Assembly: GCA_015075425.1 (NCBI GenBank)
Contig: JABTUL010000001.1
Location: 2,108,001 to 2,172,000 of the forward strand
From: Spirochaetales bacterium
GTDB lineage: Bacteria > Spirochaetota > Leptospiria > Leptospirales > Leptonemataceae
Direction of reading: 5' to 3'
DNA: 64,000 nt
Under the pieces are notes generated by a model. That model searched no databases. It saw nothing but the letters and a program-made list of their open reading frames with translations, and was not told the DNA's origin. This document shows, piece after piece, positions 22,359 to 28,211 of this stretch; the first letter of the stretch is position 1; each line of letters begins with the position of its first letter. The translations under genes and the position numbers were made by a program.

Positions 22359-22970
22359 GTGAGTAAACATGGACCGTCTGTCCGGGAGCGCCTCGTGCAG
22401 ACGGCCATGGATCTCTTCTACCGGCAGGGCTATGCGGAAAGCGGACTCAAGCAGATCCTCAAAGAGTCCGCTGTTGCCCGGGCTTCCTTCTATGATCATT
22501 TTGCCTCCAAAGAGGAACTGGCGCTCTACTATTTGCAGAGCCAGAGCGATCTGTACCGTGAAAGAACCAGGCGACTGATGGAGCACCATCCTCATCCTCT
22601 CGACTACGTAGAGGTACAGGTGAGGCTACTGCGCAAGGCAATCAAAAGCCCGGTTTTCTTTGGTTGCGCCCTGGCAAACTTTGCCGCGCTGCCCCAGGAG
22701 GATCGGCTCAAAGAAAAAGCAGAGCAAATTACCAGGGAATGGTGCTCTCTGTATGCGCAGTACTTTGATGCTGCCAGGAAAGCCCGGATACTGCTTCCGA
22801 CCTGCGATGTCTGGGAGCTGGCCATCCAGTTCAAAACCATCTATGAAGGTTCCCTGATTCTCTGGCGCATGAGCGGGCAACCGGACCCCATTGTCCACAG
22901 TCGGGAGCTGTACCGCATACTGCTCAAAGCGAATCTGGTGGATGGACACCTTTCCGGGAGTACTTTCTGA
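22359..22970 (+). CDS. TetR family regulator, likely repressor of the thiolase operon
   Basis: 203 residues from the GTG at 22359, which follows a GAGGTG ribosome binding site overlapping the thiolase stop. The helix-turn-helix is at about residues 10-55 (AMDLFYRQGYAESGL, then VARASFYDHFASKEEL). The C-terminal ligand domain (residues 75-190) is of the kind seen in YxaF/LmrA-like regulators. Co-transcription with thiolase and the palindrome in the thiolase promoter suggest a self-regulating switch, probably responding to an acyl-CoA. The ligand is an inference. Confidence 0.88.
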   Translation: MSKHGPSVRERLVQTAMDLFYRQGYAESGLKQILKESAVARASFYDHFASKEELALYYLQSQSDLYRERTRRLMEHHPHPLDYVEVQVRLLRKAIKSPVFFGCALANFAALPQEDRLKEKAEQITREWCSLYAQYFDAARKARILLPTCDVWELAIQFKTIYEGSLILWRMSGQPDPIVHSRELYRILLKANLVDGHLSGSTF

Positions 22971-23085: not shown

Positions 23086-23307
23086 ATGATCTCCGAAGCC
23101 CAGAAAAAATGCCTGGACCTTTACAATGAGGGCCTCGCTCTTTACAAGCAGCGTAAATGGCAGGAAGCCATCGCGCGTTTTGAAGAAGGCTTGAAGGCGG
23201 TTCCGGGAGACGGGCCATCAAAACTCTACATAGAACGCTGCAATCAATACATCAAGAATCCACCCGGCGCTGACTGGGATGGCGTTTTTGTGATGACCAC
23301 CAAGTAA
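23086..23307 (+). CDS. Free-standing adenylate-cyclase-tail-like TPR microprotein
   Basis: 73 residues, starting MISEAQKKCLDLYNEG. The sequence has one TPR-like hairpin (LALYKQRKWQEAIARFEEG) and then VPGDGPSKLYIERCNQYI and PPGADWDGVFVMTTK. This arrangement is the usual C-terminal tail of class III adenylate cyclases, here without any cyclase domain. The frame is open from 22891 but that part overlaps tetR. It is seven bases before a bactofilin gene, so the two are likely co-expressed. A role in protein binding near the bactofilin is possible but unproven. Confidence 0.75.
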   Translation: MISEAQKKCLDLYNEGLALYKQRKWQEAIARFEEGLKAVPGDGPSKLYIERCNQYIKNPPGADWDGVFVMTTK

Positions 23308-23313
23308 AATCCT

Positions 23314-23679
23314 ATGGCAAGAAAGAAAGAACTGCTTCGATCGATTACAGAGGAAGGTGGCGTTGTCACCGTCCTTGGCCGGGAAACCGCTTTCCAGGGA
23401 GTACTGGAATTCGACAGACCTTTACAGATCAACGGCCATTTTGAGGGTGAAATCAAAACAGATGGCGTGCTCATGATTGGCGAGGGCGCGATTGTGAAAG
23501 CTCGCATTGAGGCCGGGACGGTAATCGTTGGCGGGGAAATCACGGGAAACGTCACCGCTCGCACCAGACTGGAAATGCTGCCTTCAGGAAAAGTATACGG
23601 GAATATCAAGACTGCTAAACTGCAGATTGCTGATGGCGTGGTTTTCGACGGCAACTGCGAAATGATCCAGCCCGGTTAA
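23314..23679 (+). CDS. Bactofilin (first copy)
   Basis: 121-residue bactofilin, a filament-forming cytoskeletal protein with a right-handed beta-helix core. The DUF583 repeats run from about residue 20 (VLEFDRPLQINGHFEGEI) to 115 (LQIADGVVFDGNCEM). The N-terminal tail KKELLRSITEEGG is short and could bind the membrane. Its 3' end overlaps the glycosyltransferase gene on the other strand by 4 bases. A second bactofilin lies at 27813-28211. Confidence 0.9.
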   Translation: MARKKELLRSITEEGGVVTVLGRETAFQGVLEFDRPLQINGHFEGEIKTDGVLMIGEGAIVKARIEAGTVIVGGEITGNVTARTRLEMLPSGKVYGNIKTAKLQIADGVVFDGNCEMIQPG

Positions 23680-24779
23680 CCCTCCGCAAGCAAATCCCGA
23701 AAGGCCTGCTGGTGGATTTGCGCCGTTCGCTTCCATGTCCAATCGCTTCGGGAAAATCGCCGCCGCTTTTTCAGTGGTAGGGCTCTGTGCATTGTAAATA
23801 AAGATGCCGTCCAGCCGGCAATGTCCCCTGGTGCCACATAGACGCCACCCGGACCGGCAATTTCATGCAAACTGGGAATATCAGAAAGGATAACAGGCAG
23901 GCCGCTTGCCAGAGCTTCCAGAGCGGAAAGCCCAAAACCCTCGTAAAGGCTGGGGAGGCAAAAGAAGGCCGCGGCACTGTAGAGCACACCCAGTTCTCCA
24001 TCACTTAAAGCTTCCATTACATGAAGGTACCCTGTGGCCACCGCTCGATCCAGAGAACTATAGAATTCTTTACTTTCCCAGCCACGCCTCCCTGCTAAAA
24101 CCAGATCCAGCGGTTCTATCCGTTCACGATCGCACAGCAGCCGATAGCCCGCATAAGCTGCCAGCAGGGTTCCGTAATTCTTACGCGGCTCAAGGGTCGA
24201 AACACTCAAGATAAAGGGTCGCGGGAGCGGTGGCTTCCAGCGCACCACAGGAGGTGGCGAGTAGCCCAGGAGAGCAACGGTTGCACGCTGAGCCGGGTAG
24301 CCGTAGATGCGAATCATATCGGCCTGGGTTTGCGCACTGATGGAGAGAATACGGCCGGCGCGCCTGATACTGTATCCTTGAACGATCCTTTGCTGGTAAC
24401 GAGCCAGCCGACGCATTGCCTCTGGATAGAAAACGGCCACCAGATCGTAGAACGTCAGTACGGCCGGCATGCGCGGCAGAAACAGAGGGAGGACCTGCTG
24501 CGATCCCCAGAACAGATCCAGAGGCTTGTTTCGCAGAAGCCAGGGCAGGGCAAGATTGAAATAGAGTCCACCCTTGCGGGAAAGAATACCCTGCCCGGTG
24601 TGCCAGTGGATGTGATTCGCCGGCAGGTCGGCAAAATCGGCATGGAGTGGCAAATGACTGAAAAGATGGAAGGTGAAGCCTTCTGTGGCCGGCGTGTTCC
24701 GCAAAATCTCAGCAATCACCCGGGCCACACCAGAAGTGGGCCGCGAAAGCGGCCGGCCATCAACTCCAATCTGTATCAA
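23676..24779 (-). CDS. Family 4 glycosyltransferase
   Basis: 367 residues of the GT-B type. The C-terminal donor domain shows FILSVSTLEPRKNYGTLL, then LPSLYEGFGLSALEALASG, the usual E-x7-E nucleotide-sugar motif. The N-terminal acceptor domain begins GVDGRPLSRPTSGVARV. It probably transfers a sugar to lipid or polysaccharide; the acceptor is unknown. The TTG start overlaps the hfq stop by 4 bases, so it is translated from the rho-hfq transcript. Confidence 0.88.
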   Translation of the reverse strand: MIQIGVDGRPLSRPTSGVARVIAEILRNTPATEGFTFHLFSHLPLHADFADLPANHIHWHTGQGILSRKGGLYFNLALPWLLRNKPLDLFWGSQQVLPLFLPRMPAVLTFYDLVAVFYPEAMRRLARYQQRIVQGYSIRRAGRILSISAQTQADMIRIYGYPAQRATVALLGYSPPPVVRWKPPLPRPFILSVSTLEPRKNYGTLLAAYAGYRLLCDRERIEPLDLVLAGRRGWESKEFYSSLDRAVATGYLHVMEALSDGELGVLYSAAAFFCLPSLYEGFGLSALEALASGLPVILSDIPSLHEIAGPGGVYVAPGDIAGWTASLFTMHRALPLKKRRRFSRSDWTWKRTAQIHQQAFRDLLAEG

Positions 24780-25006
24780 GCGCTTTTGGTTTTGCGTTCT
24801 GGACGGGGCAAATGCGCTGGCTGGATCGATGTAATGGAATGCTTGAACACAAGCGACTGATGTTTATCCGTTTCTACAAGCACGGTAAAGGCATCGTGTC
24901 CGATAACCTTGCCTTTCACGTGGACCCCGTTACGCAAAAAGAAAGTCAGAGGTTTTTGCCTTTCAATGGCTGTGGCCAAGATGACATCCTGGTTCTGGCT
25001 GCGCAC
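24776..25006 (-). CDS. hfq: RNA chaperone Hfq
   Basis: 76 residues. The Sm1 region reads FFLRNGVHVKGKVIGHDAFT and the Sm2 region SLVFKHSITSIQP, with the Lys-His pair at residues 55-56 that contacts RNA in the family. The N-terminal QNQDVILATAIERQ matches the helix that frames the proximal face. The start is GTG with GGAAG eight bases before. Hfq rings bring small RNAs to mRNAs. The gene sits 59 bases after rho and overlaps the glycosyltransferase. The C-terminal tail is short and basic. Confidence 0.9.
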   Translation of the reverse strand: MRSQNQDVILATAIERQKPLTFFLRNGVHVKGKVIGHDAFTVLVETDKHQSLVFKHSITSIQPAHLPRPERKTKSA

Positions 25007-25065: not shown

Positions 25066-26493
25066 CTAAAGGCCGGAAGGCACGTTCATGCTGCCCAGAA
25101 AGTCTTCATTGGTTTTGGTATTCTTCATGCGTTCGAGCAGAAGCTCCATGGCTTCTGTGGTAGAGAGCGGACTGAGTACCTTACGCAAGACAAACACTTT
25201 ATTGAGCACAACAGGATCAAGCAGCAGCTCTTCTTTGCGCGTGCCTGATTTATTGATTTCAATGGCCGGAAAGATACGCTTGTCCGCAAGCCGCCGGTCC
25301 AGATGGACTTCCATGTTACCGGTACCTTTGAACTCTTCAAAGATCACCTCATCCATCCGGGAGCCTGTATCTACCAGTGCAGTTGCTATGATCGTTAGAG
25401 AACCACCGTGCTCAATATTGCGCGCGGCGCCAAAAAACCGTTTGGGTTTGTGCAGAGCATTGGAATCCACACCACCGGACAGAATCTTTCCGGAAGTGGG
25501 AATCACCTGGTTGTAGGCTCGCGCGAGCCTGGTAATGGAATCGAGTAGAATTACCACATCGCGACCGTGTTCAACAAGTCTTTTGGCCTTTTCAATGACC
25601 ATATCGGCAACCTGAACATGCCGCGAAGCCGGTTCATCAAAGGTGGAGCTTACCACCTCACCTCTGACGTTGCGGGCCATATCGGTGACTTCTTCCGGCC
25701 GCTCGTCAATGAGGAGTACAATCAATGTTACTTCTGGATGGTTGTGGGTGATGGCATTGGCAATGTTTTGCATCAGAATTGTCTTGCCCGTGCGTGGTGG
25801 CGCCACGATCAAACCGCGCTGACCTTTGCCAATCGGCGTCATGAGATCAATGATCCGCGTGTCCATCTGCGATGGATTCCATTCCATGACCAGTCGCTCA
25901 TCAGGATAGAGCGGAGTCAGGTTATCAAAAAGAATCCGCCGATGAGCAACATCGGGATGCTCCCCGTTGATGCTATCCACCCGCAGCATGGCAAAGAAAC
26001 GTTCTGATTCTTTGGGAGAACGAATCTGCCCGGATATGGTATCGCCGGTGCGCAGTCCAAAAAGTCGGATCTGTGATGGGGAAACATAAATATCATCAGG
26101 TCCCGGGAGGTAATTGTAATCGGGGCTGCGTAAAAAACCATAGCCTTCCTGCAACCGCTCGAGGGTGCCGTGGGCGATAACTGTACCATTGCGTTCCACC
26201 TGCTTTTGTAAGATGGCAAAGATCAAGTTTTGCTTCTTCTGCCCGGCGGAAAATTCCACTCCCAGGGACTCTGCCAGCTCCGTTACTTCATGGATGGGCT
26301 TGCGCTTGAGTTCGCCAAGATCTATGGGATCGGGTATCGGGCCATCGTAAGGGACCTTTTTCACATGGCCTTTGCCGTTACTCTCTTCATCCCCCTCTGC
26401 TTCCGGCAGGAAGCCCGGATCCTCATAGATTTCCCGTTCACGAATCTGGCGATCGTCCCGGGAACGGGAACGAGATCCTTTTCTGGCTGGCAT
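25066..26493 (-). CDS. rho: Transcription termination factor Rho
   Basis: 475 residues. The first 55 form a charged, probably disordered extension ([17 protein letters not shown]), followed by a Rho N-terminal helical part, then the RNA-binding cold-shock-like fold at about 105-180 ([20 protein letters not shown]). The Walker A motif APPRTGKT is at 231-238, with [15 protein letters not shown] as Walker B and the Q-loop region [16 protein letters not shown] lies seven bases before the ATG. Rho is an ATP-driven helicase that ends transcription. Confidence 0.97.
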
Positions 26494-26507
26494 AGATGCT
26501 CCTTATG

Positions 26508-26521
26508 GCCCCCCGGGGGGC
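26508..26521 (-). promoter_or_regulatory. GC palindrome in the rho leader
   Basis: GCCCCCCGGGGGGC is a perfect 14-base palindrome placed a few bases before the Shine-Dalgarno of rho, downstream of a C-rich, A/T-rich leader. rho is self-controlled in other bacteria, so this structure could take part in such control. Two mRNA copies could also pair. Function is inference only. Confidence 0.4.
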
Positions 26522-26643
26522 GAAAAAGTTCGGGGGAAACAAAACTTAATGATGATAATCGTTTAAACTTTTACCGGACGGCTCAAGTGATTGTTAGCAA
26601 TATTTAAGTCGTTTCCCTGACAACAAAAAATTTAGGCGCCGGT

Positions 26644-27708
26644 TCAAAACTTTACGTAGCGAAACGGATTGACCGGCTTTCCATTGACGATGACTTCAAA
26701 ATGCAGATGCGGGCCTGTAGACAGGCCAGTATTTCCGGATCGGGCAATCACTGCCCCGGCTTTGACAACGTCTCCGGCACTTACATGAAAGCGACTCAGA
26801 TGCGCATACAGCGTCTTCAAATTTCCGCCATGATCAATGATAACTGCTTTCCCGTACGATCCCAGGTATCCGGCATAGTGCACCCGACCGGACCTGGCAG
26901 CGCGCACGCTGGCATAGCTCATGCCAATGTCAATGCCGGTATGCACCTGCCAGCGTCGCGAGAACGGATGGATGCGGCGACCAAAACCGGATGTCAAACG
27001 GCCGGAACCGGGAAAGATCCAGGTGGGGGCCGGTGGTTCCGGAATCTTTGCATTGGGTAGAAAAACGCGAACACCGTTCTCCACGATGTCAAGATCCTCA
27101 AGATCAGGATTATCCTGCATGAGCTCATCAAGACTGACCGAGTAGCGATCAGCAACGGCGGCCAGGGTATCGCGCGGTGTCATTTTGTACATGAGACCCG
27201 GCTTAACCGGTATGATAACTTTCTGTCCCGTCTTTAGCTCATCCGACTCCAGATGAGATGCCTTACGGATGAGAGCCACTGGTATGCTGTACTTCCGGGC
27301 GATTCCATCAAGGGATTCACCGGGTTTCACCGTATGCGTACGGGTTTTACCGGTATAGGCCGGCTCATCTTTTAATAATTCTTCTTTAAGTTTTTCCGAG
27401 CGCTCTTCGAGTTCTACCGGCTGCAAAGACGATTCCAGACGTTCGAGTTCTTCAGCGTCAATGGTATCCGCGGTACTGCTACTGGTGATGAGAGCCAGGC
27501 CCCCGGAGAACATGAAGAACAGAGCAAGGAAGCTCATACCACCAACACGGTATTTTTTACGCCCCAGTTCCAGCTTGCGCACGACCGGATGTTCGCGGCC
27601 GGGATAGCTGTAAAGGAAGGTCCCCCCTCCCAAGTGCATCAGGGAAAATCGACCCTTCAGATGAAAGAGCCTCTGGCCACTTCGATTCTTGAAACGCTTG
27701 TTATACAT
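26644..27708 (-). CDS. LysM and M23 peptidase (cell wall endopeptidase)
   Basis: 354 residues. One membrane segment at about 56-76 anchors it facing the periplasm. Two LysM domains follow (HTVKPGESLDGIARKYSI at 125-142; YKMTPRDTLAAVADRYSV at 174-191), then an M23/LytM domain with zinc ligands His256, Asp260 and His336, and His334 (TGPHLHFEV). No ligand is missing, so it should cut peptidoglycan cross-links. It follows a bactofilin gene in the same direction, as in the bactofilin-M23 pairs that set cell shape in other bacteria. Confidence 0.93.
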   Translation of the reverse strand: MYNKRFKNRSGQRLFHLKGRFSLMHLGGGTFLYSYPGREHPVVRKLELGRKKYRVGGMSFLALFFMFSGGLALITSSSTADTIDAEELERLESSLQPVELEERSEKLKEELLKDEPAYTGKTRTHTVKPGESLDGIARKYSIPVALIRKASHLESDELKTGQKVIIPVKPGLMYKMTPRDTLAAVADRYSVSLDELMQDNPDLEDLDIVENGVRVFLPNAKIPEPPAPTWIFPGSGRLTSGFGRRIHPFSRRWQVHTGIDIGMSYASVRAARSGRVHYAGYLGSYGKAVIIDHGGNLKTLYAHLSRFHVSAGDVVKAGAVIARSGNTGLSTGPHLHFEVIVNGKPVNPFRYVKF

Positions 27709-27812
27709 CCAGTGTATTGGTCCAGAGGCCAGATTGTGGATCTACTGGCAGCGGACAACCCCTTTTTGGCCTTCAATCCCTTGATTCGGACGGGATTGCC
27801 GGCACCTCAAGC

Positions 27813-28211
27813 CTATTTTTCGATGATCTTCAAGTCACCGTAGGCTTCTTCAATGACTTTGCGCGGATCTTTTTTGAGTCCGCCGGTAATATTGATGCTG
27901 CCTTTGGCCACCACACCGGGCGCAATATGGAGCTGCGGGGATGTGATATCTCCCAGCAATTTTCCATTTTCTTCCAGCCGGACCTGATGCTCTGCGCGGA
28001 TGTTGCCAATCATGGTCCCGCTGATCATCACCGCTTTTGCGGCAATGTTGGTTTTAACCTTGCCGGTCTCTCCCACAATCAGCGATTCTTCTGTTTTGAT
28101 TTCCCCTTCAAACTTGCCATCAATCTTCAGAGAACCGGAAATGTAGAACTTACCCTCAAAAATAGATCCAGGCCCGATCACGCTGTTCAGGGTATCATTC
28201 CGGGTGGCCAT
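27813..28211 (-). CDS. Bactofilin (second copy)
   Basis: 132-residue bactofilin. The N-terminal tail ATRNDTLNSVIGPGS leads into DUF583 beta-helix repeats (SLKIDGKFEGEIKTEESL through LHIAPGVVAKGSINITGG), ending with a short charged helix (PRKVIEEAYGDLKII). It lies between the TPR gene (42 bases upstream) and the M23 peptidase gene (104 bases downstream), all on the minus strand. The neighbours suggest it positions the peptidase for helical or curved cell shape. Confidence 0.92.
   Translation of the reverse strand: MATRNDTLNSVIGPGSIFEGKFYISGSLKIDGKFEGEIKTEESLIVGETGKVKTNIAAKAVMISGTMIGNIRAEHQVRLEENGKLLGDITSPQLHIAPGVVAKGSINITGGLKKDPRKVIEEAYGDLKIIEK

Follow-up and report, generated by a model that had tools for sequence, protein, structure and literature searches.

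Spirochaetes rely on bactofilins for the shape of their cells and, to our knowledge, the cytoplasmic partners of these bactofilins are largely unknown. The 64,000-nucleotide stretch of a Spirochaetales genome analysed here (the window) contains an open reading frame for a protein of only 73 residues immediately upstream of a bactofilin gene, which raises the question of whether so small a protein is the leftover of a larger one or a working companion of the bactofilin. A published description of this pair was sought in the open-licence literature (subscription papers lay outside its scope), and none was found. Our analyses make it somewhat probable that, in spirochaetes, the microprotein serves one type of bactofilin, the BbbA/LbbA type, as a dedicated accessory protein.

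The two-gene unit in the window

The two open reading frames lie on the same strand and in the same frame (Table 1), with 6 bases between the stop codon of the microprotein gene and the start codon of the bactofilin gene; the earlier note had recognised the adjacency but had counted seven bases. Since a glycosyltransferase-like gene converges on the pair, the microprotein and bactofilin genes form a two-gene unit in the window genome. The bactofilin matches PF04519 with 100.5 bits against a curated cut-off of 27.9, its top Foldseek match is the bactofilin filament 6rib, and it is one of five bactofilins encoded in this genome. Further downstream, an Hfq gene (24776-25006; PF17209, E=2.6e-18) lies between the glycosyltransferase-like gene and a minus-strand cluster of Rho (25066-26493), a LysM/M23-like peptidase (26644-27708) and a second bactofilin (27813-28211; PF04519). 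This cluster (25066-28211), in which Rho and the M23 peptidase were named from sequence reading, resembles the known bactofilin-M23 pairing, and it is the second bactofilin, not the one paired with the microprotein, that lies near the M23-like gene.

Table 1. Position and basis of the features at the microprotein-bactofilin locus (window coordinates)
Feature	Position	Strand	Basis and remarks
TetR-family regulator, upstream (context only)	22359..22970	+	PF00440, E=1.6e-11; start codon uncertain
Microprotein gene	23086..23307	+	ORF, 73 codons/73 aa, TAA stop
TPR_2-like stretch, microprotein residues 12-41	23119..23208	+	Pfam TPR_2, sub-threshold
Microprotein C-terminal peptide PPGADWDGVFVMTTK	23260..23304	+	Ends at the stop codon; contains residues invariant in 82 free-standing copies
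Bactofilin gene	23314..23679	+	121 aa/121 codons; PF04519, E=6.6e-29; putative BbbA/LbbA-like type (tree, weak support)
Glycosyltransferase-like gene, converging on the pair	23676..24779	-	Named from sequence reading, without family scan

The microprotein gave a single Pfam match, to one TPR_2 repeat (E=5e-6; 26.7 bits, cut-off 27.0), and no match in the NCBIfam scan, while its sequence matches in the PDB are designed and natural TPR proteins. Helices are predicted at residues 4-21, 25-38 and 43-57 (AlphaFold2, pLDDT ~96), and would form helix-turn-helix hairpins of the kind that TPR proteins have. Across the 82 free-standing copies that we compared, P59, P60, W64, D65, G66, V67 and K73 are conserved at 100%. 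Judged from sequence and model, the microprotein would thus consist of a TPR-like three-helix hairpin followed by a conserved C-terminal WDGV...TK peptide.

Conservation of the pair and its bactofilin type

Homologues of the microprotein were found in 58 of 61 genomes at E<=1e-3 (tailed cyclases included), and in a phylum-wide sample 266 of 392 genomes gave matches at E<=1e-8, with a short-frame match in at least 144 of the 392 (among the matches listed, 144 short ones in 144 genomes, and 6 long). The earlier note had proposed looking for the pair in other spirochaetes, and the linkage proved to be widespread: among 29 short-frame relative loci, 28 have a bactofilin gene immediately downstream in the same orientation, and one follows directly in 71 of the 72 free-standing named GTDB loci. 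The latter stem from a collection of 84,980 species, which yielded 542 relatives; the best 80 of these were examined and included the 72 short frames (74-258 aa from stop to stop). The 29-locus and 72-locus sets have organisms in common and so do not count as independent. Nine further fetched loci (L137-L142, L144, L145 and L175) all show the same adjacency. One exception occurs in each set (L038 and L089); both contigs have a length of 290,227, and we take them to be one and the same. From the locus to the end of that contig, the sequence reads as a 5S rRNA region. In 71 pairs the gap between the two genes ranges from -4 to 156 nt, with a median of 19.

A cyclase domain just upstream in relatives would, according to the earlier note, have made the microprotein a remnant. 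Instead, its description of the protein as free-standing agrees with the frames being closed at 74-258 aa in both the 72 and the 29 free-standing loci. Among the closest microprotein pairs, dN was 0 to 0.14 against a dS of 0.22 to 2.7 where dS was computable (e.g., dN 0.012 and dS 1.01), and the median dN/dS was 0.28 over 75 pairs with moderate dS; close pairs are thus under purifying selection. A decayed remnant or a chance open reading frame would fit the window in one respect, as the scan for promoters and terminators gave nothing above chance there and a strong ribosome-binding or promoter signal is absent, but the invariant residues, the conservation throughout the phylum and the low dN/dS of close pairs, far below 1, make such an origin extremely improbable. 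Hence, the microprotein is a real, conserved and selected gene, and since its free-standing copies are closed, conserved and selected throughout the phylum, we discard its interpretation as a cyclase remnant.

The pair is kept in at least four unrelated neighbourhoods (71 named loci, with several gene names taken from sequence reading). It is followed by a glycosyltransferase and Hfq in the first; in the second it stands between cdaA, ybbR and acpS-like genes on one side and rpsB on the other; in the third it follows a STAS gene and a polyprenyl synthase gene; and in the fourth it is preceded by HU, Lnt-like and response-regulator genes and followed by Rho. The gene upstream of the pair varies over the phylum, and within part of the order the pair is followed by relatives of the glycosyltransferase-like gene of the window. 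The diadenylate cyclase (cdaA), ybbR and acpS-like genes that precede the pair in one lineage (L048:1723-3986) point to a possible cell-wall context. A response-regulator gene lies 5' of the pair in many Spirochaetales loci (L109:3258-4001 and L119:3258-4001, the former scanned with Pfam), and in L235, L242, L222 and L225, where the microprotein is missing, such a gene reads as directly 5' of the unpaired bactofilin.

Through these neighbourhoods the microprotein travels with one bactofilin type. The sampled genomes contain 2 to 6 bactofilins each, and the microprotein adjoins 12 of the 109 bactofilins compared and none of the 82 paralogues of other types. In the tree, the 12 paired bactofilins share one part with 15 unlinked ones, apart from the 82 paralogues, at weak deep support (0.6-0.7). 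Every sampled genome with the microprotein also had a bactofilin of the BbbA/LbbA-like type, although adjacency partly defined the type; eight microprotein-less genomes (G044, G049, G055, G067, G079, G080, G112 and G117, three of them only 75-80% complete) showed no such bactofilin. Fifteen sampled genomes, including G010 from the family of the window genome as well as Treponema-like genomes and a Borrelia-sized one, keep a bactofilin of this type with no microprotein adjacent to it; the microprotein is therefore dispensable there, and a strict need of the bactofilin for it is ruled out. The C, E and M residues of the C-terminal bactofilin cap are present in 99, 86 and 96% of 83 paired copies vs 60, 40 and 80% of the 15 unpaired orthologues (in the 82 paralogues, C reaches 63% and M 32%), and the whole CEM cap is intact in 70 of the 83 paired copies. 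Possibly, this cap is a site of contact with the microprotein; the difference in the cap may also reflect lineage history, since 6 of the 15 unpaired copies belong to one family and the paired L068 departs from CEM as well.

The paired bactofilin groups with that of a Borrelia-sized genome, which lies beside an HU-like gene (L189), in a tree of weak support from which the named Borrelia and Leptospira bactofilins were absent, and relatives of the pair stand between HU and Rho genes. In Borrelia, bb0230 is rho. These HU/Rho surroundings of some pairs, together with the report that hbb flanks Borrelia bbbA, a gene related to Leptospira LbbA (PMC13393453), suggest that the bactofilin partner of the microprotein is of the BbbA/LbbA type, which the same paper sets aside as functionally divergent. 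Unlike the paired bactofilins, the Borrelia-like copy, apparently of the kind of BbbA (BB0231) and LbbA, has no microprotein beside it, and its genome has no class III cyclase.

Relation to class III cyclases

The earlier note had likened the microprotein to the C-terminal tail of class III adenylate cyclases, and our searches bear this out. All other matches in the window genome at E<=0.002 are C-termini of four long frames (L002-L005), and each of the four carries a PF00211 catalytic domain together with 7TMR-DISM or GAF parts. Among the best 80 of the 542 relatives, eight long frames, all from metagenome-assembled genomes whose titles name other phyla, are without exception CHASE2 cyclases ending in such tails, and no free-standing copy outside Spirochaetota was found; five further spirochaete tails belong to three CHASE2 and two HAMP cyclases. 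None of the loci examined was recognisable as part of a Leptospira chromosome; in the plasmid collection only tailed cyclases were found, on two L. interrogans records. The window genome (G000; 4.1 Mb) contains 56 class III cyclase domain matches, which is very many for such a size.

Like the tails of CHASE2, HAMP and 7TMR-DISM class III adenylate/guanylate cyclases, the microprotein combines a TPR-like hairpin with PP...W.G[VI]....K at the very C-terminus, and it is of equal length; unlike them, it is a separate gene linked to a bactofilin and has no sensor or catalytic domain (no PF00211 match in the Pfam scan of its 73 residues). F32, D42, R51, P59, P60, W64, G66 and the terminal K73 are common to the 82 free copies and 35 tails (the internal TPR matches L009, L011 and L013 excluded), and Y20, G43-P44, D63, V67 and M70 are near-invariant besides in the free copies. 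The lysine is the exact end in 82 of 82 free-standing copies vs 26 of 33 cyclase tails, two further low-scoring tails having been removed before this count. Hence, the microprotein is probably related to the cyclase tails; the tree of free copies and tails gave no resolution as to whether a tail became a free protein or the reverse.

These shared residues would also suit a common binding site, through which class III cyclases could be brought to bactofilin filaments and cyclic nucleotide signalling coupled to cell shape. In line with this, the DNA pattern WDGV-x5-K-stop occurs in 39 of 41 genomes of relatives, with zero matches of a reversed control pattern, and PF00211 cyclases are present in 21 of 21 microprotein genomes tested and in 20 of the 23 genomes tested that lack the microprotein. 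Of the three cyclase-free genomes, all in the latter group, two belong to one family (f14) and the third is the Borrelia-sized one, whose bactofilin is BbbA-like. However, in 9 of 12 microprotein genomes no cyclase tail extends as far as the C-terminal motif at E<=0.01 (the exceptions are G058, G070 and G094), and in the window genome the pattern matches only the microprotein and one place with no stop codon. Moreover, Treponema-like genomes and other phyla have tailed cyclases but no microprotein, and none of 8 named tailed-cyclase loci lies near a bactofilin. Given this, a binding site shared in this way seems unlikely to us. Since most microprotein genomes tested lack a motif-reaching tail and tailed cyclases exist without the microprotein, neither requires the other, and a strict dependence of the microprotein on tailed cyclases is ruled out.

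The free tail might alternatively act in trans, binding class III catalytic domains as an attached tail does, with the bactofilin storing or positioning it. An AlphaFold2 model of the catalytic domain and tail of a CHASE2 cyclase gives the TPR tail a confident position relative to this domain (pTM 0.86; tail helices pLDDT 93-97), and the presence of class III cyclases in every microprotein genome tested would suit this too. The model, however, was built from an alignment of 8 rows, pLDDT is only 41-67 at the motif end, the gene linkage is to bactofilin rather than to cyclase, and the microprotein is often missing where a genome has several tailed cyclases. Hence, we regard such a trans regulator as improbable.

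A probable dedicated accessory protein of the bactofilin

Because of linkage, specificity and selection, which we regard as good evidence, the microprotein and the bactofilin can be expected to work together. Co-produced from one short operon, they would act jointly, the microprotein most likely as an adaptor or regulator located at the bactofilin filament or at the membrane site of the filament, and its C-terminal WDGV...TK would serve as a docking peptide for a second partner. This partner need not be a cyclase, and cyclases with the same tail may use the same docking site. A fixed contact between the two proteins was sought in an AlphaFold2 read-through fusion (76 rows, mostly unpaired; a single bactofilin subunit) and none was predicted; both proteins are well folded in this model (mean pLDDT 90.9; pTM 0.59), and direct rigid docking within one chain is absent from it. 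The claim of the earlier note that the microprotein docks a cyclase on the bactofilin filament fares poorly, given the missing contact in the fusion model, the separate occurrence of microprotein and tailed cyclases and the absence of bactofilins near tailed-cyclase loci; a signalling link between cyclases and bactofilin via the microprotein is possible.

The short gaps and the position of the small gene first in the pair would also fit co-translational help by a bactofilin-specific chaperone or assembly factor, which binds nascent or monomeric bactofilin and is not a filament component. Small TPR proteins such as PcrH are chaperones, and they share TPR helices and a weak Foldseek similarity with the microprotein, which differs from them in its single repeat, its conserved C-terminal peptide and its gene partner. 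Such a role leaves the invariant C-terminal peptide unexplained and sits poorly with the 15 sampled genomes in which same-type bactofilins have no microprotein, and we consider it improbable as well. An accessory protein of the bactofilin, as we favour, recalls other two-gene units: LmdC-BacA of Hyphomonas neptunium and bb0246-bbbG of Borrelia are described as bactofilins with M23 endopeptidase partners (PMC13393453, PMC10945521). Like the present pair, these are conserved units that join a bactofilin to a cooperating partner; they differ in that the partner in the window is a small TPR-like protein with no peptidase domain.

It is conceivable, if rather unlikely, that the microprotein is a stand-alone cytoskeletal adaptor derived from a cyclase tail, in which WDGV...TK is a docking tag gathering the microprotein and, in many lineages, cyclases at one bactofilin type. 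If true, this would give spirochaetes a filament-bound second-messenger hub. In any case, a very small conserved gene beside one bactofilin type offers a direct genetic handle on the function of that bactofilin. It is also a pointer to the partner of the widespread, unnamed CHASE2-type cyclase tail, since the factor recognising WDGV...TK in the microprotein may also recognise this peptide in the cyclases.
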